Positions 2,548-44,431 of a stretch of 64,000 bases of DNA are shown one piece after another. The notes under the pieces were generated by a model, which made no database searches, had not been told where the DNA came from, and saw only the letters and a program-made list of their open reading frames with translations. A program made the position numbers and the translations under genes. The stretch covers positions 124,001-188,000 of the forward strand of contig PABH01000053.1 in assembly GCA_002702705.1 (NCBI GenBank). Reading direction: 5' to 3'. Position 1 is the stretch's first letter, and each line of letters starts with the position of its first letter. This DNA is from Anaerolineaceae bacterium (GTDB lineage: Bacteria > Chloroflexota > Anaerolineae > Anaerolineales > Anaerolineaceae).

Positions 2548-3945
2548 CTATTTTTCCGTTGCTTTTTCGATGGCTGAAATAATTTTATAATAACCGGTAC
2601 ATCGACATAAATTTCCGGATATTGCTTGTTTAATTTCCAATTGTGTTGGTGTCGGTTTCTCTTCCAATAATTTTACTGCGGACATAATAAAACCAGGTGT
2701 ACAATATCCACATTGAACTGCACCTTCTTCAATAAAAGCCTTCTGAACCGGGTGAATTTCATCTTCTTTGGAATATCCTTCAACCGTTGTAATAACCGCT
2801 TTATGTGCTCTTTCTGCAGGCACTAAACAACTCATAACAGCCTGGTCATCCAAAATAACTGTACAAGCACCACATTCACCTTCTGCACAACCTTCTTTTG
2901 TTCCAATCAGCCCAGCATCTTCCCGAATAAGCCGCAATAGGCTTTTATCCCCAGCATTTTTTAGATGATAGGTTTTTCCATTAATAGTCGTTACGATCTC
3001 TTTATCTTCATTGTGTTTAGATTGTTCAGTTAACTGTTTTTTCTGATTTGGATTAGCTAATAAGACTGGATTAGTCGGAATTTTTGAAAGACCGCTATGC
3101 AGCTGTTCCAATGCACGTTTTGTTACAACTTTGATCATCGTATAACGATAAGCATTAGAACCGCGCACATCTGAAATTGGTCGTCCAGCTTTTTGAGCTA
3201 ATTTTGAGGCTTTTTGGATGATATCATCAGAAAGCTGTTTGCCAACCAAAAATTCTTCAGCTTCAGCAGCGTGGATAATCGTTGGAGCGACGGCTCCTAA
3301 AGTGATAATGGCATCCTTAATAAGATTTTCTTCAAATGTCATAATCACTGCTACATTCACCAATGAAATTGCTTGTGCTTTTCTCAATGCAAACTTTATA
3401 AAACTACCTTTTTGATTTGCTTCCATTGCAGGAAAAGAAATATCCTCTACCATTTCGTTGGCATATAATATGGTTTTACGAACACCTGTATAAAAATCCT
3501 TTAATAACACTTGCCTGGTATTATTTTTTGATCGTAACGTTAAAGTAGCATTTAGTGCAATCAACGGAGAAATCGTGTCGTTTGCTGGAGATGCTGTGAC
3601 CAAATTACCTGCAATAGTACCCCGATTTCGAATTTGTGGAGATCCAACTTCCCATGCTGCTTCTGCTAGTGGTAAAGCACGTTCTCGGATTAATTTAGAG
3701 GCGACACAATCATTATGTGTAACCAAAGGACCGAGATGAATGTTGTTGTCTTCATCTAGTGTAATTTTATCGAAGTCAGAAAGTCTTGAAATATCAATGA
3801 TAACTTCCAAATTCTTACGAACACCACGTTCAATTTCCAAGATTAGGTCAGTACCCCCTGCTATGAGGCGTGCCTTATCCTGATACTTGTCCAGGAGATC
3901 TAATGCTTCCTCTATGGTTGCAACGTTGTAATAATTATTCCACAT
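2548..3945 (-). CDS. FAD-binding subunit fused to 2Fe-2S subunit of molybdenum hydroxylase
   Basis: 465 residues joining two subunits that are usually separate. Residues 1-290 are the FAD module (CoxM/XdhB type), with AGGTDL at 29-34 and AGNLVTASPAND at 112-123. Residues 315-465 are the 2Fe-2S module (CoxS/XdhC type): plant-type cluster cysteines 353, 358, 361 and 373, and second-cluster cysteines 412/415 (CGYC) and 447/449 (CRC). All eight ligands are present. It takes electrons from the Mo centre through two 2Fe-2S clusters to FAD and then to an external acceptor. ATG at 3945 follows GGAGG. The XdhC-type maturation gene lies 11 bases upstream and the small membrane protein 17 bases downstream. 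The fusion order FAD then Fe-S is less common than separate genes. The likely catalytic partner is the Fe-S-less Mo subunit at 1-2157. Confidence 0.93.
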   Translation of the reverse strand: MWNNYYNVATIEEALDLLDKYQDKARLIAGGTDLILEIERGVRKNLEVIIDISRLSDFDKITLDEDNNIHLGPLVTHNDCVASKLIRERALPLAEAAWEVGSPQIRNRGTIAGNLVTASPANDTISPLIALNATLTLRSKNNTRQVLLKDFYTGVRKTILYANEMVEDISFPAMEANQKGSFIKFALRKAQAISLVNVAVIMTFEENLIKDAIITLGAVAPTIIHAAEAEEFLVGKQLSDDIIQKASKLAQKAGRPISDVRGSNAYRYTMIKVVTKRALEQLHSGLSKIPTNPVLLANPNQKKQLTEQSKHNEDKEIVTTINGKTYHLKNAGDKSLLRLIREDAGLIGTKEGCAEGECGACTVILDDQAVMSCLVPAERAHKAVITTVEGYSKEDEIHPVQKAFIEEGAVQCGYCTPGFIMSAVKLLEEKPTPTQLEIKQAISGNLCRCTGYYKIISAIEKATEK

Positions 3946-3956
3946 AAAATCCTCCG

Positions 3957-4745
3957 TTAAATTCGCATACTTGAAGCATTTGATTTGTTTTTAATTGAGT
4001 GAATTTCACTCATAATGCTGAGAGCAATCTCTTTCGGCGTCTCTGCATTTAAGTCCAACCCAATAGGAGAGTAAATTTTTTCCAGTTCAGATTCATTAAA
4101 TCCATGCTCCAGTAAATATTTTTTTGTTGTTAACCAGCGTCGTTTTGAACCAATCACTCCAATATACTTAACTTCTGATCTGATTAGGTCAGGTAAAATT
4201 TTTATATCAAAATCATACCCACGTGTGGTCATAATAACATAATCATGTGATGTTAGTTCTAAAGATTTAAATATGTTTTCAGGTTTTTCCAAAAATACTT
4301 GATCTGCAATTTTTTCTGGTAAAAGATTTATGATCTCATCTCGGTCATCGATTAATACCGTAGGCAAATCCATCCATTTTGCCAATGAACTTACTGCTTG
4401 GCCCACATGACCTGCACCAATAATGATGATTCGATTTGCAACCCCAATTAATTCTAAAAAAACTTCAACTGTTCCGCCACAAATTCCGGGATCACCATCT
4501 TGTGGCGAGACAAGATCATACGATAATACTTTTGTTTTTCCTGTAACAAATAAAGATTGAGCTTCTTGTATTACCCTTGCTTCTATTTCTCCACCACCAA
4601 TTGTCCCCAAAAAACTACCATCAGACATAACTAACATTTTACTACCTGCATGACGGGGTGTAGAACCGGTTGTTTTTGTTACTAAACACAAAACAGTCTG
4701 TCGGTTTTCTTTTATGATTTCATAAAGTTTCGTATAAATGCTCAT
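3957..4745 (-). CDS. xdhC: XdhC/CoxI family molybdenum hydroxylase maturation factor
   Basis: 262 residues. The N-terminal XdhC_CoxI domain (about 10-80) shows GSTPRHAGSKM and GTIGGGEIE, then DPGICGGTVEVF. The C-terminal Rossmann domain (about 105-245) opens with IIIIGAGHVGQAV. Family members bind Mo-pterin cofactor, assist its sulfuration and insert it into XDH-type enzymes. This placing between two Mo-enzyme gene sets suits one chaperone serving both. The start at 4745 (ATG AGC) has no Shine-Dalgarno sequence: the bases just upstream are GAATAAAAAT, preceded by a GC-rich hairpin (4756-4783). Translation may therefore depend on coupling or on that structure. The length is normal for the two-domain family form. 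Confidence 0.9.
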   Translation of the reverse strand: MSIYTKLYEIIKENRQTVLCLVTKTTGSTPRHAGSKMLVMSDGSFLGTIGGGEIEARVIQEAQSLFVTGKTKVLSYDLVSPQDGDPGICGGTVEVFLELIGVANRIIIIGAGHVGQAVSSLAKWMDLPTVLIDDRDEIINLLPEKIADQVFLEKPENIFKSLELTSHDYVIMTTRGYDFDIKILPDLIRSEVKYIGVIGSKRRWLTTKKYLLEHGFNESELEKIYSPIGLDLNAETPKEIALSIMSEIHSIKNKSNASSMRI

Positions 4746-4755
4746 ATTTTTATTC

Positions 4756-4783
4756 TACCCGCGCAAGTCAAATTGCGCGGGTA
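4756..4783 (-). promoter_or_regulatory. GC-rich hairpin between large Mo subunit and xdhC
   Basis: Perfect 11-bp stem TACCCGCGCAA (4756-4766) and TTGCGCGGGTA (4773-4783) with a 6-base loop. On the transcribed strand it is followed by GAATAAAAAT and the xdhC ATG, not by a U-run, so it is not a standard terminator. It starts only a few bases past the upstream stop codon. Possible roles are 3' protection of the upstream cistron, an RNase processing site, or control of xdhC initiation. Its GC content stands out from the AT-rich surroundings. Confidence 0.6.
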
Positions 4784-4788
4784 CTGGT

Positions 4789-7785
4789 TTACTTTTCTTG
4801 TAATGCGTGCCACACTCTTTCTGGTGTAGCAGGATTTGAGTCAACATTAGCTCCACATGCATCCAATATCGCATTTCCAACTGCTGGTGCGACTCCGTCT
4901 AACGGGATTTCAGCTACTGCCTTAAGTCCAAACGGATGGGTAGGTTCATATGTCTGCACAAAAATGGTTTCTAATTCGGGCATTTCATCTGCACGGAAAA
5001 TGTGATAATCAACTAAATCTTTTTCGCGGGCATTTCCATTTTCATCATAAACCATTTCTTCAGAAACAGCGTAACCTAAAGCCTGAACCATACCGCCCTC
5101 AATTTGGCCCGAAGCTGTAATTGGGTTAACAATTACCCCGGAATCAACTGCCATTACGAGTTTTTCAACTCGTACCTGACCCGTATTTGTATCTACCACA
5201 ACTTCTGCAAATTGGGCTGCAAAAGGTGGCGGTGAAGATTCGGACACAAATGAACCTACAGCCATGATTTGTTCTTGATCGGTATGATGTAATGCGTTTA
5301 ATGCAATTTCTTTCAGTGTCACAAAACTACCATCTGGTGCGATAGCCTTTTTATCAAACAAGTCAATTTCCTCAGGTGTTACTTCCATAGAAGGATATTT
5401 TGCTTTTAACATATTGACAGCACGTTCAGAAATTCTACGTGCTACTTTATCAGCTGCACGAATAACTGCACCACCGGAGATGTACGTTGTTGAAGAGGCA
5501 TAAGCTCCCACATCAAACGGTGTAAAATCCGTATCAGAAGAATAAACAATAACATCATCTACATCAACACCTAAAACTTCAGCAGCCATTTGAGCTAAAA
5601 CAGTATCGCTACCGGTTCCCAAGTCTGTTGCGCCAACCAATAAGTTGAATGAACCATCGTCATTCATTTTTAGACTGGCTCCGCCCATATCTAAATAGGG
5701 AATTGCTGTGCCTTGCATTACGGTTGCAATGCCGATGCCGCGTTTTAAATAAGGCTTGTCTGGAATATTTCTCCATTCTGGATTATTGTATTTTTGGTCC
5801 CAGCCAATAGCTGCCTTTCCTTGGTTTACACATTCTTCCAATCCGACCGTGTGAATGATTTCAGGTTTGGGTTCACGACCTTCACTCCAAGCAGTACTAA
5901 ATGGGTGCATTTCTCCTGCTCGAATGGCATTTTTCATTCTTAATTCTATTGAATCCAATTTTAATTTTCTGGCAATTTTTTCCATATGACGTTCGACAGC
6001 CCAATAGCCCTGTGGAACACCATATCCTCGATATGCACCTGAAGGTGGTGTATTGGTATAAACCACATCTGCATAAAATCGAATATTTGGATTTTCTCTA
6101 TATTTTCCTTCGCCAACATATAAGGCCATTGATTTATGTCCAGTATTGCCAGTTACTGTCAAAGCGTGACAACCATAGGCTCCTGTATCGCTTAATGCGT
6201 ACATTTCATTTGCCGTAATGGTGCCATCATTTTTAACACCAGTTTTCAAATGAATTCGCATGGGATGTCTGGAACGAGAAGAAACGAATTCATCTTCACG
6301 TGTATATTCATAAATAACTGGACGGCCAGTTGCAATGGTTAAGTGGGCGGCGACATCTTCAACCAATACTTCTTGTTTTCCGCCAAAACCACCACCAATT
6401 CTAGGTTTAATCACCCTAATACGCCTAACCGGTAATTGCAAAACAGGTGCTAACATTCTTCGAACATGGAACGGAACCTGTGTACTTGATTTAATTACTA
6501 AACGGTCATCCGGATCCCAGTAAGTTAGAACTACATGGGGTTCGATATGTGCTTGTTGAACCTTCGGTACTTCATAATCCCCTTCAAGAATAAAATCAGC
6601 TTCTTCGAAACCTTTTTCAACATTACCAATATCAATCCGGATTTCTGCTGCAAGGTTTTTCTTTGGATCAGAATCTGCAAAGTTTACATATTCAGGCTCA
6701 TCATGAATTTGAACCGCACCAGGTTTCATGGCGTCATTCATATCAAGAATGGTTGGTAACTCCTCATATTCAACTTCTATTAATTTTAATGCTTGGTTAG
6801 CAATCTCAATTGTCTCAGCGGCAACAAATGCAACCCTATCTCCAACAAATCGCACTTTATAATCAAGAGAAAAAGCGTCCAAAGGACCAGGAATCGGATC
6901 GGATTGACCTGCAGTAGAATAAATTACTCGTGGAATATCTTTGTAAGTTAAAACTGCGGCGACACCATCCAAAGCCTTTGCTTTGGAAACATCAATATGT
7001 TTAATTCTGGCATGAGCGACTGGGCTAAATAATACTTTAGCAACCAGAGTATCTTTACCAACAAAATCAGCGACAAATGAAGGTTTGCCTTGAACAAGTT
7101 TTTGGGCATCAACTTTTTTACTTGGTTTACCAACTTGAGTTGTTTTTTTCTTTACATCTTGTTGAATGGAAATTTTAGGGAAAACCTTTGTTGTCAGGTT
7201 TGAATTCGATGATGTCGGTGAGGTTCCGGGCTGTTGAGAGAGATCCAAAGGCAAACTATCAGGTGTTTGATAATCTGCTTCAATAGGTGGAACAATTTCC
7301 CCTCTCAAAAAAGCTGCGGCTCGTAAGACAGCTTCAACTGGTTTTGTATAACCTGTGCATCTGCATAAAATTCCCGATAAAACATCTCGCACTTCTTTTT
7401 CACTGGGATTATTGTTTTTTTCTAGCAAATGTTTGGAAGCCAAAACCATAGCGGGTGTGCAATATCCACATTGGATAGCTCCAGTTTCCATAAATGCTAT
7501 TTGAATTGGGTGAAGACCTTTTGTTTTTTTCCATCCTTGATCTAAAACTTCCCCAATCCCTTCAATTGTTTCAATTTTATGTCCATCAACTTGAGCAGCC
7601 AAAATATGACAAGAATTTACTGGTTTTCCATCAAGAAGAACTGCACAGGACCCACACTCACCGTTTTGGCATCCCCCGTTTTTTACACTTAATATGTTTT
7701 TATTTCTTAATATATCCAATAAGGTTTGGTGAGGTTGAACTTCCCATTCCAATTCATTCTGATTTAAGGTGATATTTATTAACAT
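4789..7785 (-). CDS. 2Fe-2S / molybdopterin-binding fusion subunit of a molybdenum hydroxylase
   Basis: 998 residues from the ATG at 7785, chosen because GAGG lies 6 bases upstream; the frame also allows a GTG at 7797. Residues 1-165 are the two-cluster 2Fe-2S module with cysteines 39, 44, 47, 59, 106, 109, 141 and 143. A Ser/Thr/Pro-rich linker (about 175-225) leads to the Mo-pterin domain. Seen there: GGGFGGKQE (about 463-471), SGAYRGYGVPQ (about 580-590), GATDLGTGSDTV (about 700) and KAVAEIPLDGVAPA carrying the catalytic Glu (about 958). Gln replaces the bovine XDH Glu802, and Tyr-Gly-Val replaces the Phe914 region, so its substrate differs from that of the Mo subunit at 1-2157. It resembles the fused Fe-S/Mo subunits of selenium-type xanthine dehydrogenase and YgfN/XdhD loci. 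The standalone FAD subunit upstream is its presumed partner. Confidence 0.9.
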   Translation of the reverse strand: MLINITLNQNELEWEVQPHQTLLDILRNKNILSVKNGGCQNGECGSCAVLLDGKPVNSCHILAAQVDGHKIETIEGIGEVLDQGWKKTKGLHPIQIAFMETGAIQCGYCTPAMVLASKHLLEKNNNPSEKEVRDVLSGILCRCTGYTKPVEAVLRAAAFLRGEIVPPIEADYQTPDSLPLDLSQQPGTSPTSSNSNLTTKVFPKISIQQDVKKKTTQVGKPSKKVDAQKLVQGKPSFVADFVGKDTLVAKVLFSPVAHARIKHIDVSKAKALDGVAAVLTYKDIPRVIYSTAGQSDPIPGPLDAFSLDYKVRFVGDRVAFVAAETIEIANQALKLIEVEYEELPTILDMNDAMKPGAVQIHDEPEYVNFADSDPKKNLAAEIRIDIGNVEKGFEEADFILEGDYEVPKVQQAHIEPHVVLTYWDPDDRLVIKSSTQVPFHVRRMLAPVLQLPVRRIRVIKPRIGGGFGGKQEVLVEDVAAHLTIATGRPVIYEYTREDEFVSSRSRHPMRIHLKTGVKNDGTITANEMYALSDTGAYGCHALTVTGNTGHKSMALYVGEGKYRENPNIRFYADVVYTNTPPSGAYRGYGVPQGYWAVERHMEKIARKLKLDSIELRMKNAIRAGEMHPFSTAWSEGREPKPEIIHTVGLEECVNQGKAAIGWDQKYNNPEWRNIPDKPYLKRGIGIATVMQGTAIPYLDMGGASLKMNDDGSFNLLVGATDLGTGSDTVLAQMAAEVLGVDVDDVIVYSSDTDFTPFDVGAYASSTTYISGGAVIRAADKVARRISERAVNMLKAKYPSMEVTPEEIDLFDKKAIAPDGSFVTLKEIALNALHHTDQEQIMAVGSFVSESSPPPFAAQFAEVVVDTNTGQVRVEKLVMAVDSGVIVNPITASGQIEGGMVQALGYAVSEEMVYDENGNAREKDLVDYHIFRADEMPELETIFVQTYEPTHPFGLKAVAEIPLDGVAPAVGNAILDACGANVDSNPATPERVWHALQEK

Positions 7786-23424: not shown

Positions 23425-24993
23425 ATGATGGTTATAAAAAATAAATTAAATGAAAATTATTGGGAAACAATAGACATAAAAGATAAAGATGTTGAAGTTC
23501 TCATTAATCACTTGTTTGAGATTGAAACCCCCCTGAATACAAATCAACTTTTAGAAGTTTTTATAAAAAATCGCATTTCAGAAGAAAAAGAGAATCTCAA
23601 AAAAATTTCTCGAGGCAATGCAGCAATTTTCAAGCCATCAGAGGATTATCAACTAAATCAAAAGATTTTATTTATAGATTCTGAGGTAAAAAATGGCGTT
23701 GTGATTGCAAAGCGAAAAGGTAATAATCCGGAAATTGACAATTTTGACGTTATTGATGTTAAATTTGATGACGGCAGAACAAAACAATATGCATGTAACT
23801 TAATAGAACATAAATTAAATTCTGTTTCGGAAGTCGAAAATCTCGATGAAACTTTGGATTTTGATTTTATTTACCATAATTACAAAAAAACTTTAAGCAA
23901 AAAACTTGGTCGGGTTCTTGAAAACAATGAAGACCTAGTACAAATTGCAGGGTTTTGGTTTCCAAGTTCACTTTTGGTAGATGTAAATATTGGTTATTTA
24001 AATTTATCAGAAGCTGTACTTGAAGTCGCTGGTGGTGGCCCACTAACGACCAAAGAGATCCTTGAACAAATAGAACTGCCTACTGATGCAAACAGCTTAT
24101 TAACCGAGTTTTCTTTAAATTATGCGCTCCAGGAAGATAAACGTTTTGATGAGGTGGGACCGGCAGGAGAAACATTATGGTTTTTGCATCGTCTAGAACC
24201 AGAAAATGTTAAGCAACAACCAAAACATTTGATTTTTTCGGATCTCCAAACCTATGAAAAAGAAAAATATAGCGAATCCTTAACTCAAATCAATGCTGGT
24301 GTATTTGATGAACTTGAAGATGATATGGACCAAAACGAATGCGCTACGGAAGTAGCTATTTCCATTATTTATCCCCATCTCGCTTCAGGGACGCTTCCTC
24401 TTTCAAAATGTTTATCTGATTTATTTCCAACTTCTTATGAGGCTCCTCGAATTCGATTCACAATTGTTGACGGAGATACCAAACAAAAATTTCCAGGTTG
24501 GGTTGTTAGAGAACATAAGTACGTGTATGGCTTAAAAGATTGGTACGAAAATAACTCTGTATTACCAGGTAGTACGATTTTTATTAAACAGAGCAAGACC
24601 CCTGGTGAGGTTATAGTATCTATTGGAAAAAAACGCAATACACGTGAATGGGTTAGAACAGCTGATGCCACTCCAGAAGAACAATTAAATATAAGCATGA
24701 ATCAACAGTTGATATCTACCGAATTTGATGATCGAATGATTATCGCAATTCCTTCTCCACAATCAATAGAAGTTTTGTGGGACAAATACAAAAATTATCC
24801 TCTCGAAAAAATATTACCAATAGTTATCCGGGAACTAGCAAAATTAACCCCCCAGGGAAATGTTCATGCACAAGAAATTTATGCTGTTATTAATATTATA
24901 AAACGCTGTCCTCCAAGTTATACGCTTTATCTTTTGGATAAAGACGAAAACATCGAGCACTTAGGGGATTTATATTACAAAATTAAACACTAA
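23425..24993 (+). CDS. Unrecognised protein with winged-helix-like segments
   Basis: 522 residues; I do not recognise a family. Visible parts: an N-terminal helical stretch (about 8-60, INHLFEIETPLNTNQLLEVFI) that looks like a winged-helix; a small beta-barrel-like region (about 65-130) ending in DVIDVKFDDGRTKQYACNL; a second winged-helix-like block (about 190-245, AGGGPLTTKEILEQIELP), like HARE-HTH/RpoE-delta domains; a mixed beta region (about 310-430) with FPGWVVREHKYVYGLKDWY; and a C-terminal helical block (about 445-520). There is no signal peptide or membrane helix. The pattern suggests nucleic-acid binding. The next gene, 21 bases on, also ends in a helix-turn-helix-like segment, so the two probably form a unit. 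Confidence 0.7.
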   Translation: MMVIKNKLNENYWETIDIKDKDVEVLINHLFEIETPLNTNQLLEVFIKNRISEEKENLKKISRGNAAIFKPSEDYQLNQKILFIDSEVKNGVVIAKRKGNNPEIDNFDVIDVKFDDGRTKQYACNLIEHKLNSVSEVENLDETLDFDFIYHNYKKTLSKKLGRVLENNEDLVQIAGFWFPSSLLVDVNIGYLNLSEAVLEVAGGGPLTTKEILEQIELPTDANSLLTEFSLNYALQEDKRFDEVGPAGETLWFLHRLEPENVKQQPKHLIFSDLQTYEKEKYSESLTQINAGVFDELEDDMDQNECATEVAISIIYPHLASGTLPLSKCLSDLFPTSYEAPRIRFTIVDGDTKQKFPGWVVREHKYVYGLKDWYENNSVLPGSTIFIKQSKTPGEVIVSIGKKRNTREWVRTADATPEEQLNISMNQQLISTEFDDRMIIAIPSPQSIEVLWDKYKNYPLEKILPIVIRELAKLTPQGNVHAQEIYAVINIIKRCPPSYTLYLLDKDENIEHLGDLYYKIKH

Positions 24994-25014: not shown

Positions 25015-25446
25015 ATGAGTGAAACCAAAAGATTTAGTCTTGTTAAGCCCACTGAAGATACGCCCTTTCAAATTGATTTTGACTGGTGGAAAAATCACGA
25101 CCAAAATTGGCGTGTATATTTGCATAGTTTTTTGTGCGATGAGCATAAACCATTATTTTCAGAAGAAGATACAGCAATTCTAATCGATTATATTGATCCA
25201 GACACGGCTGAAGTCGTTACAGTTGACGGCCTTCAACATGTTTTAATGACTCACTGTTCTAAAAAAGAAGATTTCTTGACTGATCACACAACCATGGTGA
25301 ATTCAGTTTTCCGAATCTTTATTTCGAATGGAAATGCCCCCTTAACAATTAAGGAATTAAGTAGTATAACTGGCAAGCCTGCAAGAACCATCTTACAAAC
25401 ATTGGCTGGAACGCAGGTTTACAAAGGGATAAGACCAGTTCATTAA
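25015..25446 (+). CDS. Unrecognised small protein with C-terminal helix-turn-helix-like segment
   Basis: 143 residues, ATG behind AAGGTAATT. The N-terminal half (1-75) is acidic with Trp-rich DFDWWKNHDQNWRVYLHSFLC. The C-terminal half has a probable winged-helix (NSVFRIFISNGNAPLTIKELSSITGKPARTILQTLAG, in part about 96-132). It follows the 522-residue unknown protein by 21 bases and should be in the same transcript. It may be a DNA-binding partner of that protein. No database family is recognised. Confidence 0.65.
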   Translation: MSETKRFSLVKPTEDTPFQIDFDWWKNHDQNWRVYLHSFLCDEHKPLFSEEDTAILIDYIDPDTAEVVTVDGLQHVLMTHCSKKEDFLTDHTTMVNSVFRIFISNGNAPLTIKELSSITGKPARTILQTLAGTQVYKGIRPVH

Positions 25447-25458
25447 TTATTTTAATAT

Positions 25459-25531
25459 GCCCCCGTAGCTCAATGGACAGAGCACCGGACTTCTAATCCG
25501 TAGGTTGTGCGTTCGAGTCGCACCGGGGGCG
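25459..25531 (+). tRNA. tRNA-Arg (anticodon TCT)
   Basis: Cloverleaf of 73 bases. The acceptor stem GCCCCCG (25459-25465) pairs with CGGGGGC (25524-25530), discriminator G at 25531. Anticodon stem CGGA/TCCG encloses the loop CTTCTAA, giving anticodon TCT (reads AGA). The T-arm contains GTTCGAGTC. A T-run follows (25534-25538). AGA is a common Arg codon in this AT-rich sequence. Confidence 0.95.
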
Positions 25532-25557
25532 CCTTTTTAAAAACATTTTCAATTATC

Positions 25558-25783: not shown

Positions 25784-26218
25784 ATGACACAAAAAAACAA
25801 CCTTGAATCGATAAGTACTATAAATGCCAACAGCCTAAATAATCCTGCTGATCGAGATTCGAATCGTTGGCAAAATATTCAAAATAAAAACTATAATTGG
25901 CATCCTCCAACAGATGTTTATGAAACACAATCAGAACTGGTTATCAAAGTCGAAATTGCAGGTATGGAAGAAAGCCACTTTGATATTTCCATCGATAAAA
26001 ATGTTCTAATAATCCGTGGTATTCGAATTGACACGACGAGCCCTGAAAGAAAGGCTTACCATCAGGTTGAAATTGGTTTTGGGGAGTTCACAACCCAAAT
26101 TGAAATTAATATCCCCCTAGACCATGAAAACTCCTCTGCAGAATACGAAAATGGATTTTTAACAATCAAGATTCCAAAAGCGCTGCCAAAACAAATAAAA
26201 ATTACAAAAAAAGATTAG
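25784..26218 (+). CDS. Hsp20 / alpha-crystallin family small heat-shock protein
   Basis: 144 residues. The alpha-crystallin domain (about 42-140) starts WHPPTDVYETQSELVIKVEIAGM and includes FDISIDKNVLIIRGIR and AYHQVEIGFGEFTTQIEINIP. The usual C-terminal GFLTIKIPKA is present; the last residues contain KQIKI, matching the I-x-I oligomerisation motif. It holds unfolded proteins in solution. It lies 8 bases before lon, so chaperone and protease are probably expressed together under stress. No CIRCE-type repeat was seen upstream. Confidence 0.92.
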   Translation: MTQKNNLESISTINANSLNNPADRDSNRWQNIQNKNYNWHPPTDVYETQSELVIKVEIAGMEESHFDISIDKNVLIIRGIRIDTTSPERKAYHQVEIGFGEFTTQIEINIPLDHENSSAEYENGFLTIKIPKALPKQIKITKKD

Positions 26219-26226
26219 AAAATATC

Positions 26227-28719
26227 ATGGAAGAAAAAAAACAAAATTTTGATGAAATCAATGATCCCGAAGAGGGAAAACACACATCGCCAAACGATTC
26301 AAGTTTTGATATCGAAGATGAAGAACAAAGTAGTCCAGATGTACCAAAAACACTGCCAATCTTGCCATTAAGAGGTATTGTTGTATATCCACAAACAGCA
26401 GTTCCTTTGACAATAGGACAACCAAGGTCAGTGCAATTGGTTGACGAGGTTATGGCGACCAATCGCATGATTGGCTTACTCACTTCCAACAATCCTGAAT
26501 TAGAAAACCCAAATCCAGAAGATTTATACAATGTGGGTACGGTTGCAACCATTCATCGAATGTTTCGTGCTCCGGATGGTACGATTCGATTGGTTGTCCA
26601 AGGGTTATCAAGGTTCAAAATAGTTGAATTTATTTCTAAAGAACCTTATTTAAAAGCCACAATTGAACCCTATCCAGAAGATGAAGATTCATCCATTGAA
26701 ACGGAAGCTTTAGCAAGAAGCGTTAGGGAGCAATTTCAGCATATTGCAGAAATGATACCCTCTATTCCTGGAGAACTGGTTGCATCCATTACATCAATCC
26801 AAGACCCTTTACAAACCGCTTATACAATCAGCAATTTCCAAAGAATGGAAGTTTCTGATAGCCAAAACATACTGGAAATTGATTCAATTCATGAGAAATT
26901 AAAAAAATTGGTAAATATTCTCACCAGAGAAAGTGAAGTTCTCGAAATCGGTCAAAAAATACAAAACGAGGCGCGAGAAGAAATTGATAAAGTACAACGT
27001 GAATATTTTTTAAGAGAACAACTTAAAGCAATTCAACGAGAACTTGGTGAAGGAGATGAAAATTCCGTAGAAATCAACGAATTTCGTAATAAGATTAGCA
27101 CCCTAGGTATGCCCGAAGAAGCAGAAAAATTAGCCTTACGCGAATTAGATCGTCTTGAAAAACTCCCCGCTGCTGCTGCAGAATATGGTGTTATCCGAAC
27201 ATTTGTTGAGTGGATTGTTTCTCTCCCTTGGTCTGAAACATCTGAAGACAACCTTAATATTCCTCATGTTAGGAAAATTTTAGATAAAGATCACTATGGG
27301 TTAGAAGATGTAAAAGAACGAATATTAGAATTTTTAGCGGTAAGAAAGCTTTTTAAAGACCGAGAAACACTCGAAGATGACGCTAAGTTGGAAACAAATG
27401 ATCCTATTAGAAAAATGCATCAGGGATTCATATTGTGTTTTGTGGGTCCTCCTGGCGTCGGAAAAACCTCTTTAGGCCGTTCAATAGCACGTGCATTGGG
27501 AAGAAAATTTATTCGACTGTCTTTGGGTGGTGTAAGGGATGAGGCAGAAATCAGAGGCCACCGCCGTACATATATTGGTGCAATGCCGGGAAGAATTATT
27601 CAATCACTGCGGCGAGTGGGTACAAAAAATCCGGTGTTTATGTTAGATGAGATCGATAAGGTAAGTTCAGATTTTCGAGGAGATCCAGCCTCTGCTTTAC
27701 TAGAAGTGCTCGATCCTGAACAAAATTACGAATTTCGGGACAATTATTTAGAAGCACCATTCGATCTATCTCAAGTAATGTTTATTACTACAGCAAATCA
27801 GCTTGGCACGATACCATCCCCTCTTTTAGACCGCATGGAAGTAATCCAGATTTCCGGATACACCGAAAATGAAAAATTAAATATCGCACAAAAGTACTTG
27901 GTACCCCGGCAGCTCAAACAAAATGGATTAGAGCCTGAAGAAATTAATTTCGATCAAGCAGCACTTAAACATATCATACGTGCTTACACAAAAGAATCCG
28001 GTGTTCGAAATCTTGAAAGGGAAATTGGCACGATATGCCGAAAAATTGCAACAGCAATAACTGAAGGTAAAACAATTCCAGAGATGATTTCAGCCCAGGA
28101 AGTAAGTGAGTTGCTCGGAAAACCTAAATTCCATGAAACAGATGAAATTATCCGACGAACATCTTTGCCCGGAGTTGCCACTGGTTTGGCGTGGACTCCT
28201 GTTGGAGGTGATATTTTGTTTATCGAAGCAACCAAAATGCCGGGCTCAAAAGGCTTTACGATCACCGGATCAATTGGCAAAGTCATGCAAGAATCAGCAC
28301 AAACAGCTTTGTCGTTAGTTCGTAGTAAAGCTGCAGAATTAAAGATATCACCGGATGATTTTGCAAATAATGATGTCCACTTACATGTACCCGCTGGTGC
28401 ACAACCAAAAGATGGACCATCTGCTGGAATAACGATTACTACCGCCTTAGTTTCATTATTTACAAATCGTTTGGTAAGAGCTGACATCGCTATGACAGGC
28501 GAAATTTCATTAAAAGGTCAGGTGCTTCCAGTAGGTGGTATTAAAGAAAAATTATTAGCTGCACATCGATCCGGAATTAATACAGTCATTCTTCCAAAAA
28601 ATAATGAAGTTGATCTAGACGATATTCCAGAAGAAATCAAAAAAGAAATGACCTACCACTTAGTCGAAAATATTGAAGATGTCCTAAAATTTGCATTAGA
28701 ACCCGATCCAAAAAAGTGA
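26227..28719 (+). CDS. lon: ATP-dependent protease La (Lon)
   Basis: 830 residues in LonA order: N-terminal substrate domain (about 38-230, starting LPILPLRGIVVYPQ), coiled coil, AAA+ module with Walker A GPPGVGKTS (about 406-414) and Walker B VFMLDEIDK, and the C-terminal protease domain. The catalytic Ser is in PKDGPSAG (about 732) and the Lys in GGIKEKLLAAHR (about 775), so the Ser-Lys dyad is intact. The first 37 residues are an acidic extension. It degrades misfolded and regulatory proteins. Start at 26227 is 8 bases past hsp20; the ribosome site is weak, suggesting coupling. A receiver protein gene follows after 10 bases. Confidence 0.96.
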   Translation: MEEKKQNFDEINDPEEGKHTSPNDSSFDIEDEEQSSPDVPKTLPILPLRGIVVYPQTAVPLTIGQPRSVQLVDEVMATNRMIGLLTSNNPELENPNPEDLYNVGTVATIHRMFRAPDGTIRLVVQGLSRFKIVEFISKEPYLKATIEPYPEDEDSSIETEALARSVREQFQHIAEMIPSIPGELVASITSIQDPLQTAYTISNFQRMEVSDSQNILEIDSIHEKLKKLVNILTRESEVLEIGQKIQNEAREEIDKVQREYFLREQLKAIQRELGEGDENSVEINEFRNKISTLGMPEEAEKLALRELDRLEKLPAAAAEYGVIRTFVEWIVSLPWSETSEDNLNIPHVRKILDKDHYGLEDVKERILEFLAVRKLFKDRETLEDDAKLETNDPIRKMHQGFILCFVGPPGVGKTSLGRSIARALGRKFIRLSLGGVRDEAEIRGHRRTYIGAMPGRIIQSLRRVGTKNPVFMLDEIDKVSSDFRGDPASALLEVLDPEQNYEFRDNYLEAPFDLSQVMFITTANQLGTIPSPLLDRMEVIQISGYTENEKLNIAQKYLVPRQLKQNGLEPEEINFDQAALKHIIRAYTKESGVRNLEREIGTICRKIATAITEGKTIPEMISAQEVSELLGKPKFHETDEIIRRTSLPGVATGLAWTPVGGDILFIEATKMPGSKGFTITGSIGKVMQESAQTALSLVRSKAAELKISPDDFANNDVHLHVPAGAQPKDGPSAGITITTALVSLFTNRLVRADIAMTGEISLKGQVLPVGGIKEKLLAAHRSGINTVILPKNNEVDLDDIPEEIKKEMTYHLVENIEDVLKFALEPDPKK

Positions 28720-28729
28720 AACACACCAA

Positions 28730-29125
28730 ATGAAAAACAATACACCCAAAACGATTTTTGTGATTGAAGACGACCAAACAATGCGTTCATTGTTGAATAC
28801 ACTGTTGGAAATCGAAGGTTATAATGTAACAACCTTTTGTGATATCGGTCTATCACAGTTCATTAAAGAAATCGAATTTTATAAACCCAATGTAATTCTA
28901 ATGGACATCCATTTGAAAGATTTTAATGGCATAGAGGCATTAAAGACAATTCGTTACACAGAAACTATCAAAAATACATGTGTTCTCATTTCTTCTGGTG
29001 AATATTTAGAAGTGGAAGCTGTGAAAGCCGGTGCTACCGGATTTTTATTAAAACCATATATTCCAAACGATTTATTAGAACTCATATCCACATGTATTCA
29101 GAAGGAGAATAACCCCATTGAATAA
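28730..29125 (+). CDS. Receiver-only response regulator
   Basis: 131 residues, one CheY-like domain with acidic pair D14/D15 in VIEDD, phospho-acceptor D59 (LMDIHLKDFNG) and K108 (LKP). It lacks an output domain. The next gene, a PHP-AlbA_2 fusion, overlaps its end by 8 bases, so this receiver may control that protein. No histidine kinase gene is in the window. Confidence 0.9.
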   Translation: MKNNTPKTIFVIEDDQTMRSLLNTLLEIEGYNVTTFCDIGLSQFIKEIEFYKPNVILMDIHLKDFNGIEALKTIRYTETIKNTCVLISSGEYLEVEAVKAGATGFLLKPYIPNDLLELISTCIQKENNPIE

Positions 29126-30878
29126 AAGAACCGCACGTACCAATGCTAAATGGTACAAAATGGATGTTCACATCCACACCGCTGCCTCAAGCGATTTTCA
29201 ACAACCACAAACTTCAATGTTGGAAATTTTACAAAGAGCAGAAGCGAAAGGAATGGATATTATTGGTATTACTGACCATAATACTGTTTCTGGCTTTCGA
29301 AAAATGTCTCAAGAAATCAGCCAATTGGAAATGCTTAAGGGTTTAAACAGATTATTACCTAACGAAAAAAGTCGTTTAGATGAATATCATCGTTTATTAA
29401 ATAAAATATTAGTATTACCAGGATTTGAGTTTACAGCCACCTTTGGGTTCCATATCCTTGCACTTTTTTCCCCATCAAAATCAATACGGGAAATCGAACA
29501 CTTACTCTTGAACTTGAATATTCCAGAAAAATTAGTTGATGAAGGTGCTTCAACCGTTGGAGCAACCACTGATGTTTTACAAGCATATCAAGCGATTAAT
29601 CAAGCCGGGGGGTTTGTTATTGCAGCACACGCTAATTCCTCCAATGGCGTTGCTATGCGTGGATTTAATTTTGGTGGTCAAACGAAAATAGCATACACAC
29701 AAGATCCAAACTTGCATGCTTTAGAAGTGACTGATCTCGAGCAGGAAGGGCGTAGAACTACTGCCTCTTTCTTTAATGGTACTAAACCAGAATATCCTCG
29801 CCGAATGCACTGTATTCAAGGGTCGGACTCCCATCGCTTAATTCGCGATATAAACCGGAAAAAGAATTTAGGTGTTGGCGATCGGGCAACCGAAATATTA
29901 CTTGAAGAAAAAAGCTTTGAAGCCATTCTTAATGTTTTCACAGGAAATGATTTTTCCAAAACCAGACCTTTACGGGAAGTGTCTGCGCCTTCGTTTAATT
30001 TTATATTATCTGCTCTGGAAGAAGGGGCTAATATTATTCAAGATTTTCATCCCTCAATGACTATTCGCGGTGGCAAGTTGTATGCAATTCTGGCGGATAT
30101 TTGTGCATTCTCTAATACAAATGGCGGAACTTTATATATAGGAGTAGATCCAGAAAATAAAAACAACCCACCAGGTGTTCCTAATCCGCAAAAAAATATC
30201 GAGTTAATCGAAAAAGAAGTCAACAACCGAATCAGCCCACCGATTAAATGCGAAATCGATGTTCAAGATCTCAAAAATAAAAAAATATTACGCGCTATTA
30301 TATCTCGCGGTGAAGATGCCCCTTATGCATTGGATGAGAATAAAATTTATATTCGTGAAGAGGCAGAAACTAGCTTGGCTGTTCGAGATGAAATTGTTGG
30401 CTTAGTTATGCGTGGAAAAAACCTTACAGTCTCCTCTTACCAGCCACAAAAAGAAAGTGCATCCACCTCTCAGATAGAAGAACAAAAAACCTTAAATAAG
30501 ACCTCTACTGCAGATGATTCTGTAATCGAGCCAAAAACTGGAATCGAATTATTACCCCCTCAAGAGCGAAACGGGACGAAATATTTCGTTTTAAGGGATT
30601 TAAGAAATGGAAACACTGTAAAAAACGTGACCCAAAAATCTGCAAGAAGATTATGGCAATATGCAATTAAGCGATACAACGAGGTCTCACCCAATATTCA
30701 AAAAATAGATGTGACATGGCAAGGCAATTATGGCATTATAAGGAAATATAATGTCCTAAATTACACTAATTATGATTTGGTTTATAAACAGGATAACGCA
30801 TACAGATATTTCTTTGGCGTTACCTCCAACGGAATTCATGGACCTTGGAAAAGTTTAGTTGGAGAAATGGATGATTAA
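29118..30878 (+). CDS. PHP-domain / AlbA_2 (Schlafen-type) fusion protein
   Basis: 586 residues, probable TTG start at 29118 with AAGGAG 10 bases upstream. The N-terminal PHP domain (about 14-285) shows metal ligands in MDVHIHT (H18, H20), ITDHN (D53, H54), IAAHANS and GSDSHRL. It is a probable phosphoesterase. A central domain (about 300-435) matches AlbA_2 (formerly AAA_4): [20 protein letters not shown] and [13 protein letters not shown]. AlbA_2 occurs in Schlafen-like proteins and bacterial regulators that bind nucleic acid. The last 110 residues form a further mixed domain ([10 protein letters not shown], then [15 protein letters not shown]) that I do not recognise. It overlaps a receiver gene and precedes a MogA/MoaB gene by 8 bases. 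Confidence 0.85.
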
Positions 30879-30886
30879 ACACTAGA

Positions 30887-31375
30887 ATGAATATTTGTAT
30901 TTTAACGATCTCTGATCGATCATCAAAAGGGGTTCGAGATGATCTCTCTGGTCCAGCCATCTTAAATAAAATTGAATCATTGGGTTGGAATTCAGTTGGG
31001 TATGAAATTATTCCTGATGAAATTAATATTATTCGTGACCAATTAATTCAATGGTGTGACGAAATTGTTCCAGATATTATTTTTACTACTGGAGGTACAG
31101 GATTTGCACCTCGCGACGTTACACCAGAAGCTACTGAAAAAGTTATCGATAAAAAAACTCCTGGCATTTCAGAATATATTCGTTTACAAAGTATGAAAAT
31201 CACTCCTCATGCAATGCTCTCAAGAGGTATCGCTGGTATCCGAAAAAAAACATTGATCATCAACCTACCTGGAAGCCCAAAAGCGGCTTTAGAGAGCATT
31301 GATTTTATACTTCCTGCACTTCCACATGCAGTAGAATTGATTCATAACGATCCTAAATCAGAATCAAATCACTAA
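30887..31375 (+). CDS. Molybdenum cofactor biosynthesis protein of MogA/MoaB family
   Basis: 162 residues. The molybdopterin-binding fold is marked by TISDRSSKGVRDD (about 6-18), FTTGGTGFAPRDVTPEA (about 65-81), HAMLSRGIAGI (about 107-117) and LPGSPKAALESI (about 127-138). MogA adenylylates molybdopterin before metal insertion; MoaB forms are similar and the two cannot be told apart here. It would supply cofactor for the Mo hydroxylases at the left of the window. Its stop overlaps the convergent DUF58 gene by 4 bases. Confidence 0.92.
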   Translation: MNICILTISDRSSKGVRDDLSGPAILNKIESLGWNSVGYEIIPDEINIIRDQLIQWCDEIVPDIIFTTGGTGFAPRDVTPEATEKVIDKKTPGISEYIRLQSMKITPHAMLSRGIAGIRKKTLIINLPGSPKAALESIDFILPALPHAVELIHNDPKSESNH

Positions 31376-42013: not shown

Positions 42014-44431
42014 ATGCTGAATTGGTTTAAATATTTTCAATTAGAAAAAATATCATTTTTTATTGGTCTTTTCACAGGTACCATATTATGGTTTGTTTTA
42101 CTATACGTAAAAAAATGGATACCTTCTATTGGTAACTTTATTAAAAGCTCAATACGGTTAATTCGCCAACAACAATTGTCTGGGATTTTGATATCTGTTA
42201 AAAAATATGCTCTCCAAAAAGCCCAAACAAATCACCTTGCATCTTCATTGTTTTCTCATGAAGAAATTGGAATTAAACCAAAGTTAATTGCCATCAAGCA
42301 AGATTTCCGTATTGATAAAGAAAATATATTTGTTAGTGAAATTGAAAATCTAATTCCTTTTACCCCTGATACCCCTTATCTGTCCAGGAACTATCAAGTT
42401 CCTGAAATATCATTAGCTGATGCCCTGCAAAAAAACGCAAGTTTAATCATTACTGGCATGGCAGGCATCGGAAAAACATTTACTTTGGCGGATCTGGTCA
42501 TTTCTATTTGTTTGCAAAAACATGATGCAGGTTTGTTATTAAATAAAACACCTATATATTTTGATATCCAAGATGTAAATGAATCTTTAATTAACGATCT
42601 AGAGAATACCCAAAAAATTCATAAAATCCTCTTTGATGTCTTAATAAAAAAAATTTCCACGAACAATAAATCACGTCTTGAGAGATTTATTCAATCTGAA
42701 TTAAATGATAACAATGCAATATTAATTATTGACGGATTTGATTTGTTATCAAAAAAAGAATTTGACATTTATAAATTATTTTTACAGCAAATAATTGAGG
42801 AATACAAAGATGTTCAAATTGTGATTACAGCCTCCACCTATTGGGCTGATCTTGAAGAACACCAGTTTATACCTTTAGCAGTAAAACCCTTTTCAAATGT
42901 TGATATTGAAAATTTATACCGAATCTGGACTAATAATTGGAATTCACTCATACTAAAATCCGAAAATGATCTCTCTCCTGAACAAGTTGTTTTATTGAAT
43001 TGGGTATCAAAATACAAGCACCCATTAACAAAACTAGAATATACTTTACTTATTTGGGGAGCACTAGAAGGAAGTTTACGCGGAACGAATACCCTTTCTC
43101 TTTATGAGAATTTCTTTATAAAACTTTTGGGTAATAAGTTTAATAGAGAAAAAATTGGAGAACTTACTCATTCTTTCGTTGAAAAAGAAGCAAACCTAAT
43201 TAAGTCACCTCCGCTAACAACAAATCCTATCTTAGAATCATTAATTAATGTTGGTATTATTGGTTCATCAGAATCCAACAATATCTACTTTAAACACCCC
43301 GACCTTCTTGGATATCTTGCCAGTTTTTATCCTTTTGAACCGGCAGTTCAAAAAACGATTACTGAGTTATTTTCTTGGAGTATATATGCCTCCTATTTCG
43401 GTTTTCGAATTTCGAGAGAAGCAAATAGTAGTTGGGCTGACCCCTGGATTATTGATGATTCACCTCCGCTTTATCAAAATATTTTATTAATTGGTACCTG
43501 GCTTCGCCATACATCATCAAAATCAACATTTCGTCTAAATTTGATTAAGAAATTAATATCCCTTATTCAAAACAACACAATTGCACCCCACATTCGATTA
43601 AGATTTCTCTCAATATTTGCATTTGCAAATGATTCTTCCGGTTCATTATTTTTAAAACAAATGTTGAACAATGTTAACGATCAAATGAAAATTCTTGCAG
43701 CACTTTCCGCTGCTGTTTTCTCACCAGATAACAAAATTATTCCTGACCTAATTAATGCACTTAATACAAATAACAATTATTTACAAAAATGCTTGTGTCT
43801 TGCACTTACCAGTTTTGATAATGAGTTGGCTCTACATACCCTTGGCAAAATGTTATTGTCAGGAGAGGAAAGCATTCGCAAATTAATCGCTGAAAATATG
43901 GCAGCGATACCAGGTGAAGGTCATGAGATATTAAAAGATGCAATGACAATGGATGATATTTTGGTGAGGCGTTCAGCCCTTTTTGGCCTTATTCGAATAA
44001 ACGAACCTTGGGCATTTGAAATCATTGAAAAAACCTCTATAGAAGACAGTCAATGGGTTGTGAGAAATGTGGCTGCTCAAGCGCTCGAATCATTTCAAAA
44101 AGAAGAAAATAAACCGATTCCGGAAAAAAATCCTCCCTATTATGATGATCCTTGGTTGATTGAATATGCTAGCACGAAGAAACAAGGATTATCACCTGAC
44201 TATCCGCCTAATTCTATTATTCTTGAGGCATTAAAGGATGAAAACATCACAAATAAATTAAATGCACTTACCTTTGTTTCAAGATATTTTGATGATTCTT
44301 ATTTTCCAGAATTATTCCAGTCTGTTTTGTCAAAAAACAAGGAAGCCAGTGAATTAGCTGCCTCAACTTTATATCAATTAATATGTGCAGGGAAAAAGAT
44401 TCCTTCCCCGCTTCAATATGGATTATTTTAG
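42014..44431 (+). CDS. Membrane-anchored NACHT-like NTPase with HEAT repeats
   Basis: 805 residues. A single N-terminal membrane helix (about 15-32, FFIGLFTGTILWFVLLYV) is followed by a linker and a P-loop NTPase: Walker A GMAGIGKT (about 150-157) and Walker B ILIIDGFDLLS (about 236-246), the pattern of NACHT/STAND enzymes. A helical region (about 320-520) leads to repeated helix pairs (about 520-800; SAAVFSPDNKIIPDLINAL, RNVAAQALESF) that look like HEAT repeats. STAND proteins are signal-sensing switches, and many act in immunity, but no effector domain is visible here. It is co-transcribed with the coiled-coil zinc-ribbon protein. The tail overlaps the convergent DUF167 gene by 9 bases. Confidence 0.8.
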   Translation: MLNWFKYFQLEKISFFIGLFTGTILWFVLLYVKKWIPSIGNFIKSSIRLIRQQQLSGILISVKKYALQKAQTNHLASSLFSHEEIGIKPKLIAIKQDFRIDKENIFVSEIENLIPFTPDTPYLSRNYQVPEISLADALQKNASLIITGMAGIGKTFTLADLVISICLQKHDAGLLLNKTPIYFDIQDVNESLINDLENTQKIHKILFDVLIKKISTNNKSRLERFIQSELNDNNAILIIDGFDLLSKKEFDIYKLFLQQIIEEYKDVQIVITASTYWADLEEHQFIPLAVKPFSNVDIENLYRIWTNNWNSLILKSENDLSPEQVVLLNWVSKYKHPLTKLEYTLLIWGALEGSLRGTNTLSLYENFFIKLLGNKFNREKIGELTHSFVEKEANLIKSPPLTTNPILESLINVGIIGSSESNNIYFKHPDLLGYLASFYPFEPAVQKTITELFSWSIYASYFGFRISREANSSWADPWIIDDSPPLYQNILLIGTWLRHTSSKSTFRLNLIKKLISLIQNNTIAPHIRLRFLSIFAFANDSSGSLFLKQMLNNVNDQMKILAALSAAVFSPDNKIIPDLINALNTNNNYLQKCLCLALTSFDNELALHTLGKMLLSGEESIRKLIAENMAAIPGEGHEILKDAMTMDDILVRRSALFGLIRINEPWAFEIIEKTSIEDSQWVVRNVAAQALESFQKEENKPIPEKNPPYYDDPWLIEYASTKKQGLSPDYPPNSIILEALKDENITNKLNALTFVSRYFDDSYFPELFQSVLSKNKEASELAASTLYQLICAGKKIPSPLQYGLF

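Follow-up and report, generated by a model that had tools for sequence, protein, structure and literature searches.

A PHP-AlbA_2 protein with a third domain in an hsp20-lon gene cluster of Chloroflexota, and a stand-alone receiver that seems to belong with Lon

We analysed a 64-kb stretch of DNA (the window) that encodes a 586-aa protein in which a PHP phosphoesterase domain is followed by a Schlafen-type AlbA_2 domain and a C-terminal domain (CTD). Our preferred reading, with a probability of roughly 0.45, is that this PHP-AlbA_2-CTD protein is a housekeeping metal-dependent phosphodiesterase of the Chloroflexota that most likely acts on a nucleic acid, with the PHP domain as its sole catalytic domain. 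In the mechanism that we propose, the PHP barrel alone would carry out catalysis, via its metal site, on a predicted nucleic-acid substrate (RNA 5' ends or lesion-bearing DNA). The AlbA_2 domain, which appears to have lost the Schlafen motif, and the basic CTD would form a putative binding or positioning module. The PHP gene looks vertically inherited and was probably an early member of the hsp20-lon stress cluster in which it lies. The receiver encoded directly upstream would belong to the Lon side of this cluster, and the enzyme would not need it.

The hsp20-lon context suggests the housekeeping or stress role. The nucleic-acid substrate is a guess, because small molecules are also substrates of PHP enzymes, and the nearest folds include enzymes of that kind. 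An earlier note on this DNA had proposed a regulated defence nuclease made by two genes. In its place we put two ideas open to test. One is that of a conserved, uncharacterised enzyme in which known domains are joined to a new one; the other is that of a stand-alone receiver with Lon protease as its steady genomic partner. Adjacency or overlap of genes in one genome can mislead without a check of co-occurrence across genomes. Among the literature matches listed (titles of open-licence PMC papers), no paper on the PHP-AlbA_2-CTD architecture was found.

The cluster has the order tRNA-Arg, hsp20, lon, receiver, PHP-AlbA_2, moaB, and its features in the window are as follows.

25459..25533, + strand: tRNA-Arg (tct), bordering the cluster upstream (ARAGORN)
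25784..26218, + strand: Hsp20 small heat-shock protein, encoded by the first cluster gene (Pfam HSP20, 3.8e-11)
26227..28719, + strand: Lon protease, here called Lon-A, the paralogue with the receiver downstream (Pfam Lon_C, 2.7e-85)
28730..29125, + strand: receiver-only response regulator, 131 aa (Pfam Response_reg, E 1.4e-20)
29118..30878, + strand: PHP-AlbA_2-CTD protein, 586 aa, TTG start (ORF, Pfam, NCBIfam)
29145..29972, + strand: PHP phosphoesterase domain, residues ~10-285 (TrlF profile, motif residues, structural match)
29985..30422, + strand: Schlafen AlbA_2 domain, residues ~290-435 (Pfam, structural match to 2kyy)
30423..30527, + strand: low-confidence linker, residues ~436-470 (pLDDT <50 at residues 408-467)
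30528..30866, + strand: new C-terminal domain, residues ~471-583 (confident isolated model; net charge +8 here)
30887..31375, + strand: MoaB/MogA-type molybdopterin-binding protein, encoded by the last cluster gene (Pfam MoCF_biosynth, 3.3e-33)

Domains of the enzyme

The PHP domain was recognized by Pfam (E 3e-7, residues 16-71 of the 586-aa protein) and by two NCBIfam profiles. The best PHP profile was TrlF (103.6 bits, 1.3e-29), which covers residues 10-269, followed by Ppl (72.1 bits), whose match ends at residue 241. To compare members, we used an alignment of 84 relatives, a redundancy-filtered subset of 110 loci, in which Pfam PHP matched 81 of the 84. Ten motif positions (H18, H20, D26, D53, H54, E104, H112, H171, D237 and H239) show no variation among the 84 relatives, in keeping with the intact metal ligands described in the earlier note; which of these positions bind metal we take from PHP structures.

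All ten positions are also kept in 15 of 18 loci from the wider phylum. This set excludes the TrlF-like L154, and L155, which the ORF script did not recover. Cys stands in the D26 column in two of the 18, perhaps through an alignment shift. One protein, L153 (genome G330; 3890-6106), has lost nine of the ten positions and has kept the AlbA_2 and CTD signature residues. It may be a non-catalytic derivative, so that at least one lineage could use the protein in a role without catalysis.

The full-length model has a low pTM (0.52), and its PHP half was compared with known structures using VIA-align; a Foldseek ranking was also run. The PHP barrel aligns to several PHP structures with Z 13-19. The highest score was for EndoQ with dU-DNA (Z 19.5, rmsd 3.3 over 229 residues), followed by TM0559 (Z 17.0), PsfC (Z 16.6), which we take to act on a small molecule, RNase AM (Z 15.8, rmsd 3.2 over 192 residues) and AMP-bound CV1693 (Z 13.7); HisK reached Z 7-8. 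In the model, nucleic-acid enzymes are thus among the nearest folds of the PHP half, and small-molecule enzymes are too.

This mixture bears on a second reading, which we regard as possible but rather unlikely: that the protein hydrolyses a small nucleotide or a signalling phosphate ester, with the AlbA_2-CTD part as a regulatory ligand-binding region. The presence of PsfC, CV1693 with AMP, and HisK among the nearest folds speaks for it, as does the AMP site that RNase AM and CV1693 share according to passages of PMC9410882. Against it stand the nearest profile (TrlF), the highest structural Z (EndoQ) and the basic CTD, none of which is decisive. We keep a nucleic acid as the probable substrate of the proposed phosphodiesterase.

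The earlier note had seen the PHP domain joined to a Schlafen-type AlbA_2 domain, and the domain search recovers this architecture. Pfam SLFN_AlbA_2 matches residues 324-418 (E 5.4e-20), and PF04326 was matched in 84 of 84 members. The modelled domain aligns to 2kyy with Z 11.8 and rmsd 2.3 over 112 residues (VIA-align), and to the SLFN entries listed with Z 7.1-10.9.

The catalytic motif of Schlafen proteins is ExxxxExK, and conservative changes of each of its residues abolish SLFN14 activity according to passages of PMC12215978. Two other AlbA_2 proteins of the same genome (L222 and L223) carry ExxxxExK, by eye. We mapped the motif through a single profile-to-sequence alignment, to L223 (probability 80%), since the alignment to L222 stopped short of the motif. 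At the places of E, E and K, the window protein has A304, D309 and H311. Mapped in this way, the first E is present in 0 of 84 relatives and the last K in 0 of 84. Because ExxxxExK is missing, the AlbA_2 domain is unlikely to be a Schlafen nuclease.

An AlbA_2 domain with an altered motif could still be a nuclease if D309 and H311 took the places of E and K, which we consider very improbable. The second motif place is acidic (D/E at D309) in 77 of 84 relatives, and F310 and H311 are invariant, which speaks for this idea. It is opposed by the loss of the first glutamate in all 84, by the inactivating effect of each conservative change in SLFN14 cited above, and by the loci of other families of the phylum: the A304, D309 and H311 residues are absent from most of the 18 wider-phylum loci. 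A binding role of AlbA_2 together with the CTD is what we would expect under the preferred reading.

The CTD comprises about 113 residues (about 471-583), close to the third domain of about 110 residues described in the earlier note, and it has no confident Pfam or PDB sequence match. Pfam finds nothing after residue 418 of the 586-aa protein. A CTD alignment of 61 picked member sequences gave a best E of 0.016 against Pfam, and there was no match at E ≤ 5 against PDB sequences. Modelled alone, residues 468-586 have a pLDDT of 92.4 and a pTM of 0.85. For this fold, Foldseek retrieved no match at E ≤ 0.001 from the PDB or from BFVD, and the best VIA-align Z was 4.2. Failure to match is no proof of a new fold. 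Matches that would make the CTD a dsRBD, a chromodomain or an Sso7d-like domain were weak and were not used. An internal duplication of two beta-beta-beta-alpha halves looks plausible by eye and was rejected (hhalign of the halves, probability 0.4).

The mean net charge of the CTD is +6.0 (sd 2.4), compared with -2.6 for the PHP domain and -5.7 for AlbA_2. The CTD was found in 28 of 201 phylum genomes, always where the whole-protein profile matches, and is present more than once in 18 of these 28. It is common to the family and not unique to the window genome. Relatives of ~770-810 aa (L123-L140, families f35 and f71) have two full CTD copies; many of them carry an extra partial copy, and genomes of family f45 do likewise.

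Conservation of the locus and the defence question

From hsp20 to moaB, the intergenic gaps in the window are 8, 10, -8 and 8 nt. The two ORFs lie where the earlier note had placed them, with the receiver ORF overlapping the PHP-AlbA_2 ORF by 8 nt. This overlap is no family-wide trait: it occurs in 4 of 86 adjacent pairs, in which the gap varies from -11 to 385 nt (start codons chosen by script). Around the PHP gene, tblastn detected Lon in 93 of 110 loci and MoaB in 95 of 110; hsp20 was detected in 55 of 110, many loci being too short to include it. The usual order across these 110 loci is hsp20-lon-receiver-PHP-AlbA_2-moaB.

Some further ORFs accompany the cluster. Two upstream ORFs in the window, at 23425-24993 (522 aa) and 25015-25446 (143 aa), have no confident Pfam or NCBIfam match. 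They recur near 42 and 43 of the 110 loci, respectively, many loci being too short for them, and relatives of the 143-aa ORF have 45-65% identity. The PHP gene and moaB are separated by at least 200 nt in 35 of 68 named loci with moaB (L046, L054, L055 and others), and 34 of these 35 gaps hold an ORF that resembles a GNAT acetyltransferase by eye. Farther downstream in the window, 42014-44431 encodes an 805-aa protein with NACHT/AAA and HEAT-repeat parts (Pfam NACHT 1.8e-6, HEAT_2 3.9e-11) that resembles STAND signalling or defence proteins.

Within the order, the PHP-AlbA_2-CTD protein is present in 152 of 201 genomes at E ≤ 0.001 and in 130 of 201 at E ≤ 1e-20. The matches are mostly full length, with 51-67% identity and one strong copy per genome (one genome, G183, has two). 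A strong match is missing from 71 of the 201 genomes, so the PHP gene is not essential throughout the order. At E ≤ 1e-20, 43 of 301 genomes from the wider phylum match. A pattern-based genome scan confirmed 279 stretches, and the best 80 of these are nearly all from Chloroflexi/Anaerolineae; the loci from the scan and those from the order genomes partly overlap (G190 is the same genome as G481). One MAG contig titled 'Chlorobiaceae' (L101) carries a Chloroflexota-type locus and several of the window neighbours, and is probably from a mislabelled bin.

The enzyme's pairwise distances correlate with Lon's at r 0.74 (n=57) and with MoaB's at r 0.71 (n=66), and those of Lon and MoaB correlate with each other at 0.64 (n=48); in each case, 0 of 999 permutations reached the observed value. 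By these protein distances, the PHP gene appears to diverge along with lon and moaB as closely as lon does with moaB. We searched 50,697 phage records and 72,556 plasmid records and found no place covering 80% of the PHP-AlbA_2-CTD protein. Partial matches occurred in two records of one phage and in 463 plasmid records; among the plasmid matches listed (20 rows), these cover residues 1-283 only and are annotated as TrlF or SMC. A pattern scan of IMG/VR found no PHP-AlbA_2-CTD protein. The gene looks like a core-type chromosomal gene that is vertically inherited and syntenic, and not like a defence-island gene.

The earlier note had drawn a parallel to some defence or stress systems. The inheritance and synteny, together with the lack of any full-length copy in the phage, plasmid and IMG/VR searches, argue against defence. 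We therefore hold it to be improbable that the protein is a phage-defence effector related to Ppl and TrlF. That idea has its attractions: the PHP domain is closest to those of TrlF and Ppl, Ppl is an anti-phage family in both PADLOC and NCBIfam, TrlF proteins occur on plasmids that are mostly predicted to be conjugative, and the NACHT/HEAT protein lies 11 kb downstream, but tblastn matched the latter in just 6 of the 110 loci, the majority of the 110 not being long enough to include it. The PADLOC match to Ppl (E 2.7e-17) extends over the PHP part alone, and the AAA/SMC-like ATPase is absent, the scores of 104 and 72 bits falling below the cut-offs of 350 (TrlF) and 1000 (Ppl). No whole-protein match to a defence family was found with PADLOC, and searches of phages, plasmids and IMG/VR revealed no mobile context that would point to a known anti-phage system.

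The receiver and Lon

The upstream gene had been described as a receiver-only regulator, correctly: D14, D59 (the phosphoacceptor), S89 and K108 are intact in 87 of 87 rows, with the window counted twice. The earlier note had further coupled this receiver to the PHP enzyme. Across genomes that coupling is not supported, and the receiver's steady partner is Lon.

We built a receiver alignment of 28 rows by taking every second of 62 sequences (31), removing four with long N termini and adding the window sequence. In a profile search over 22 genomes, orthologues scored 109-153 bits, and the best other receiver reached 90.1. A receiver call required E ≤ 1e-27, and no more than 22 candidates per genome were scored. 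For Lon-A the best E decided, the weakest accepted hit being at 7.6e-262 and the strongest rejected one at 1.7e-249.

Upstream sequence of 450 bp or more is available for 106 loci, and in 86 of these the receiver gene lies directly upstream of the PHP gene. As raw counts that ignore phylogeny, the same 201 order genomes include 130 with the enzyme, 133 with the receiver and 105 with both, which leaves 28 with the receiver and no enzyme and 25 with the enzyme and no receiver. Obligate co-occurrence was thus not observed. Of the 22 genomes searched with the receiver profile, 15 (14 distinct) have the enzyme without an adjacent receiver; none of these has an orthologue elsewhere, the best score being 87.2 bits.

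Of the 142 genomes that are Lon-A-positive by score, 110 have the enzyme, and the receiver is present in 95 of these and in 27 of the 32 without the enzyme. Given Lon-A, the receiver is about equally frequent with or without the enzyme; therefore the enzyme adds nothing to receiver presence. In all 27 enzyme-less cases, the receiver gene immediately follows lon and shares its strand, and five Lon-A-positive genomes have neither enzyme nor receiver (G009, G023, G036, G049 and G107). Twelve enzyme-less Lon-A loci were viewed in detail; 11 have the receiver, and the one without it is L202 (G023, 56% identity).

Viewed from the receiver, Lon-A is present in 122 of 133 genomes by score and in 130 of 133 when Lon fragments at contig ends are counted. 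A Lon fragment lies directly upstream of the receiver in 8 of the 10 genomes with receiver and PHP gene that lacked a Lon-A call; the contig-end check covered receiver genomes, and by score ten further genomes have the PHP gene only. After this check, three receiver genomes are without Lon-A: G019, G046 and G199, the last of which is also without the PHP gene.

In the wider phylum, we viewed 20 enzyme loci. Four have lon directly upstream of the enzyme and no receiver (L148, L152, L156 and L159), three have lon and the receiver upstream (L151, L155 and L158), and 13, one of them the TrlF-like L154, have no Lon, receiver or MoaB alongside. Relatives of the fusion in housekeeping loci without a receiver, which the earlier note had named as evidence against its proposal, exist in part of the family. 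On the basis of the co-occurrence counts and the wider-phylum loci, we consider the receiver and the enzyme to be separate companions of Lon, and the receiver seems to belong to the Lon side of the cluster rather than with the PHP enzyme.

Control of the enzyme by the receiver where both are present is unlikely in our judgement. The adjacency in 86 of 106 loci and the invariant phosphorylation residues are what such control would predict, and two of the genomes named above (G019 and G046) have the receiver and the enzyme with no Lon within ~3 kb upstream. Receiver and enzyme distances also correlate (r 0.70, n=62), but the receiver-Lon correlation is about equal (0.68, n=49). The 28 receiver-only and 25 enzyme-only genomes, the near-equal receiver frequency in Lon-A genomes with and without the enzyme, and the 15 enzyme genomes that have no adjacent receiver and none elsewhere in the orthologue range all weigh against control. 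We continue to read the enzyme as independent of the receiver.

Lon-A and the stand-alone, phosphorylation-competent receiver (26227-29125) form the steadier pair, and the receiver is a possible Lon regulator. A more far-reaching joint proposal, unlikely as a whole, would be that the PHP-AlbA_2-CTD protein is a phylum-specific housekeeping nuclease that removes damaged or capped nucleic-acid ends and whose nucleic-acid-binding domain has a fold not seen before, and that the receiver, under control by phosphorylation, acts on Lon as an adaptor or regulator, much as RssB serves ClpXP. If the receiver-Lon link were true, two-component signalling would directly control Lon proteolysis in Anaerolineales-type bacteria. 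According to PMC7078487, Caulobacter FixT is degraded by Lon, and this is the sole sense in which there is a precedent for Lon with stand-alone receivers.

Comparison with known systems

The PHP domain relates the window protein to several known families. TrlF (NF045780) provides its best PHP profile (103.6 bits), and the PHP domain of a plasmid TrlF has 27% identity to it. Unlike TrlF, the window protein has no AAA-like ATPase, scores below the 350-bit cut-off and carries AlbA_2 and the CTD; TrlF is plasmid-borne, whereas the window gene is chromosomal and appears to be vertically inherited. Ppl (NF042955, PADLOC PDLC02208) likewise has a related PHP domain (72.1 bits), but the window protein is without its ATPase part, is below the 1000-bit cut-off and was found in no mobile context.

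Endonuclease Q (PfuEndoQ) is the top structural match, at Z 19.5, in a comparison that covers the PHP half, although it has no significant sequence match to the window protein. RNase AM (YciV) and the TM0559-type phosphoesterases share the PHP fold (Z 15.8 and 17.0). According to passages of PMC9410882, RNase AM is a 5'-3' exoribonuclease of the PHP type that has a three-metal site and deFADding activity. The window protein scores 31.9 bits against the 375-bit Rnm cut-off, and it has both AlbA_2 and the CTD, whereas RNase AM and the TM0559-type enzymes have neither. With the Schlafen/AlbA_2 proteins (PF04326), the window protein shares the AlbA_2 fold; it differs from them in being without ExxxxExK and in carrying a PHP domain in front.
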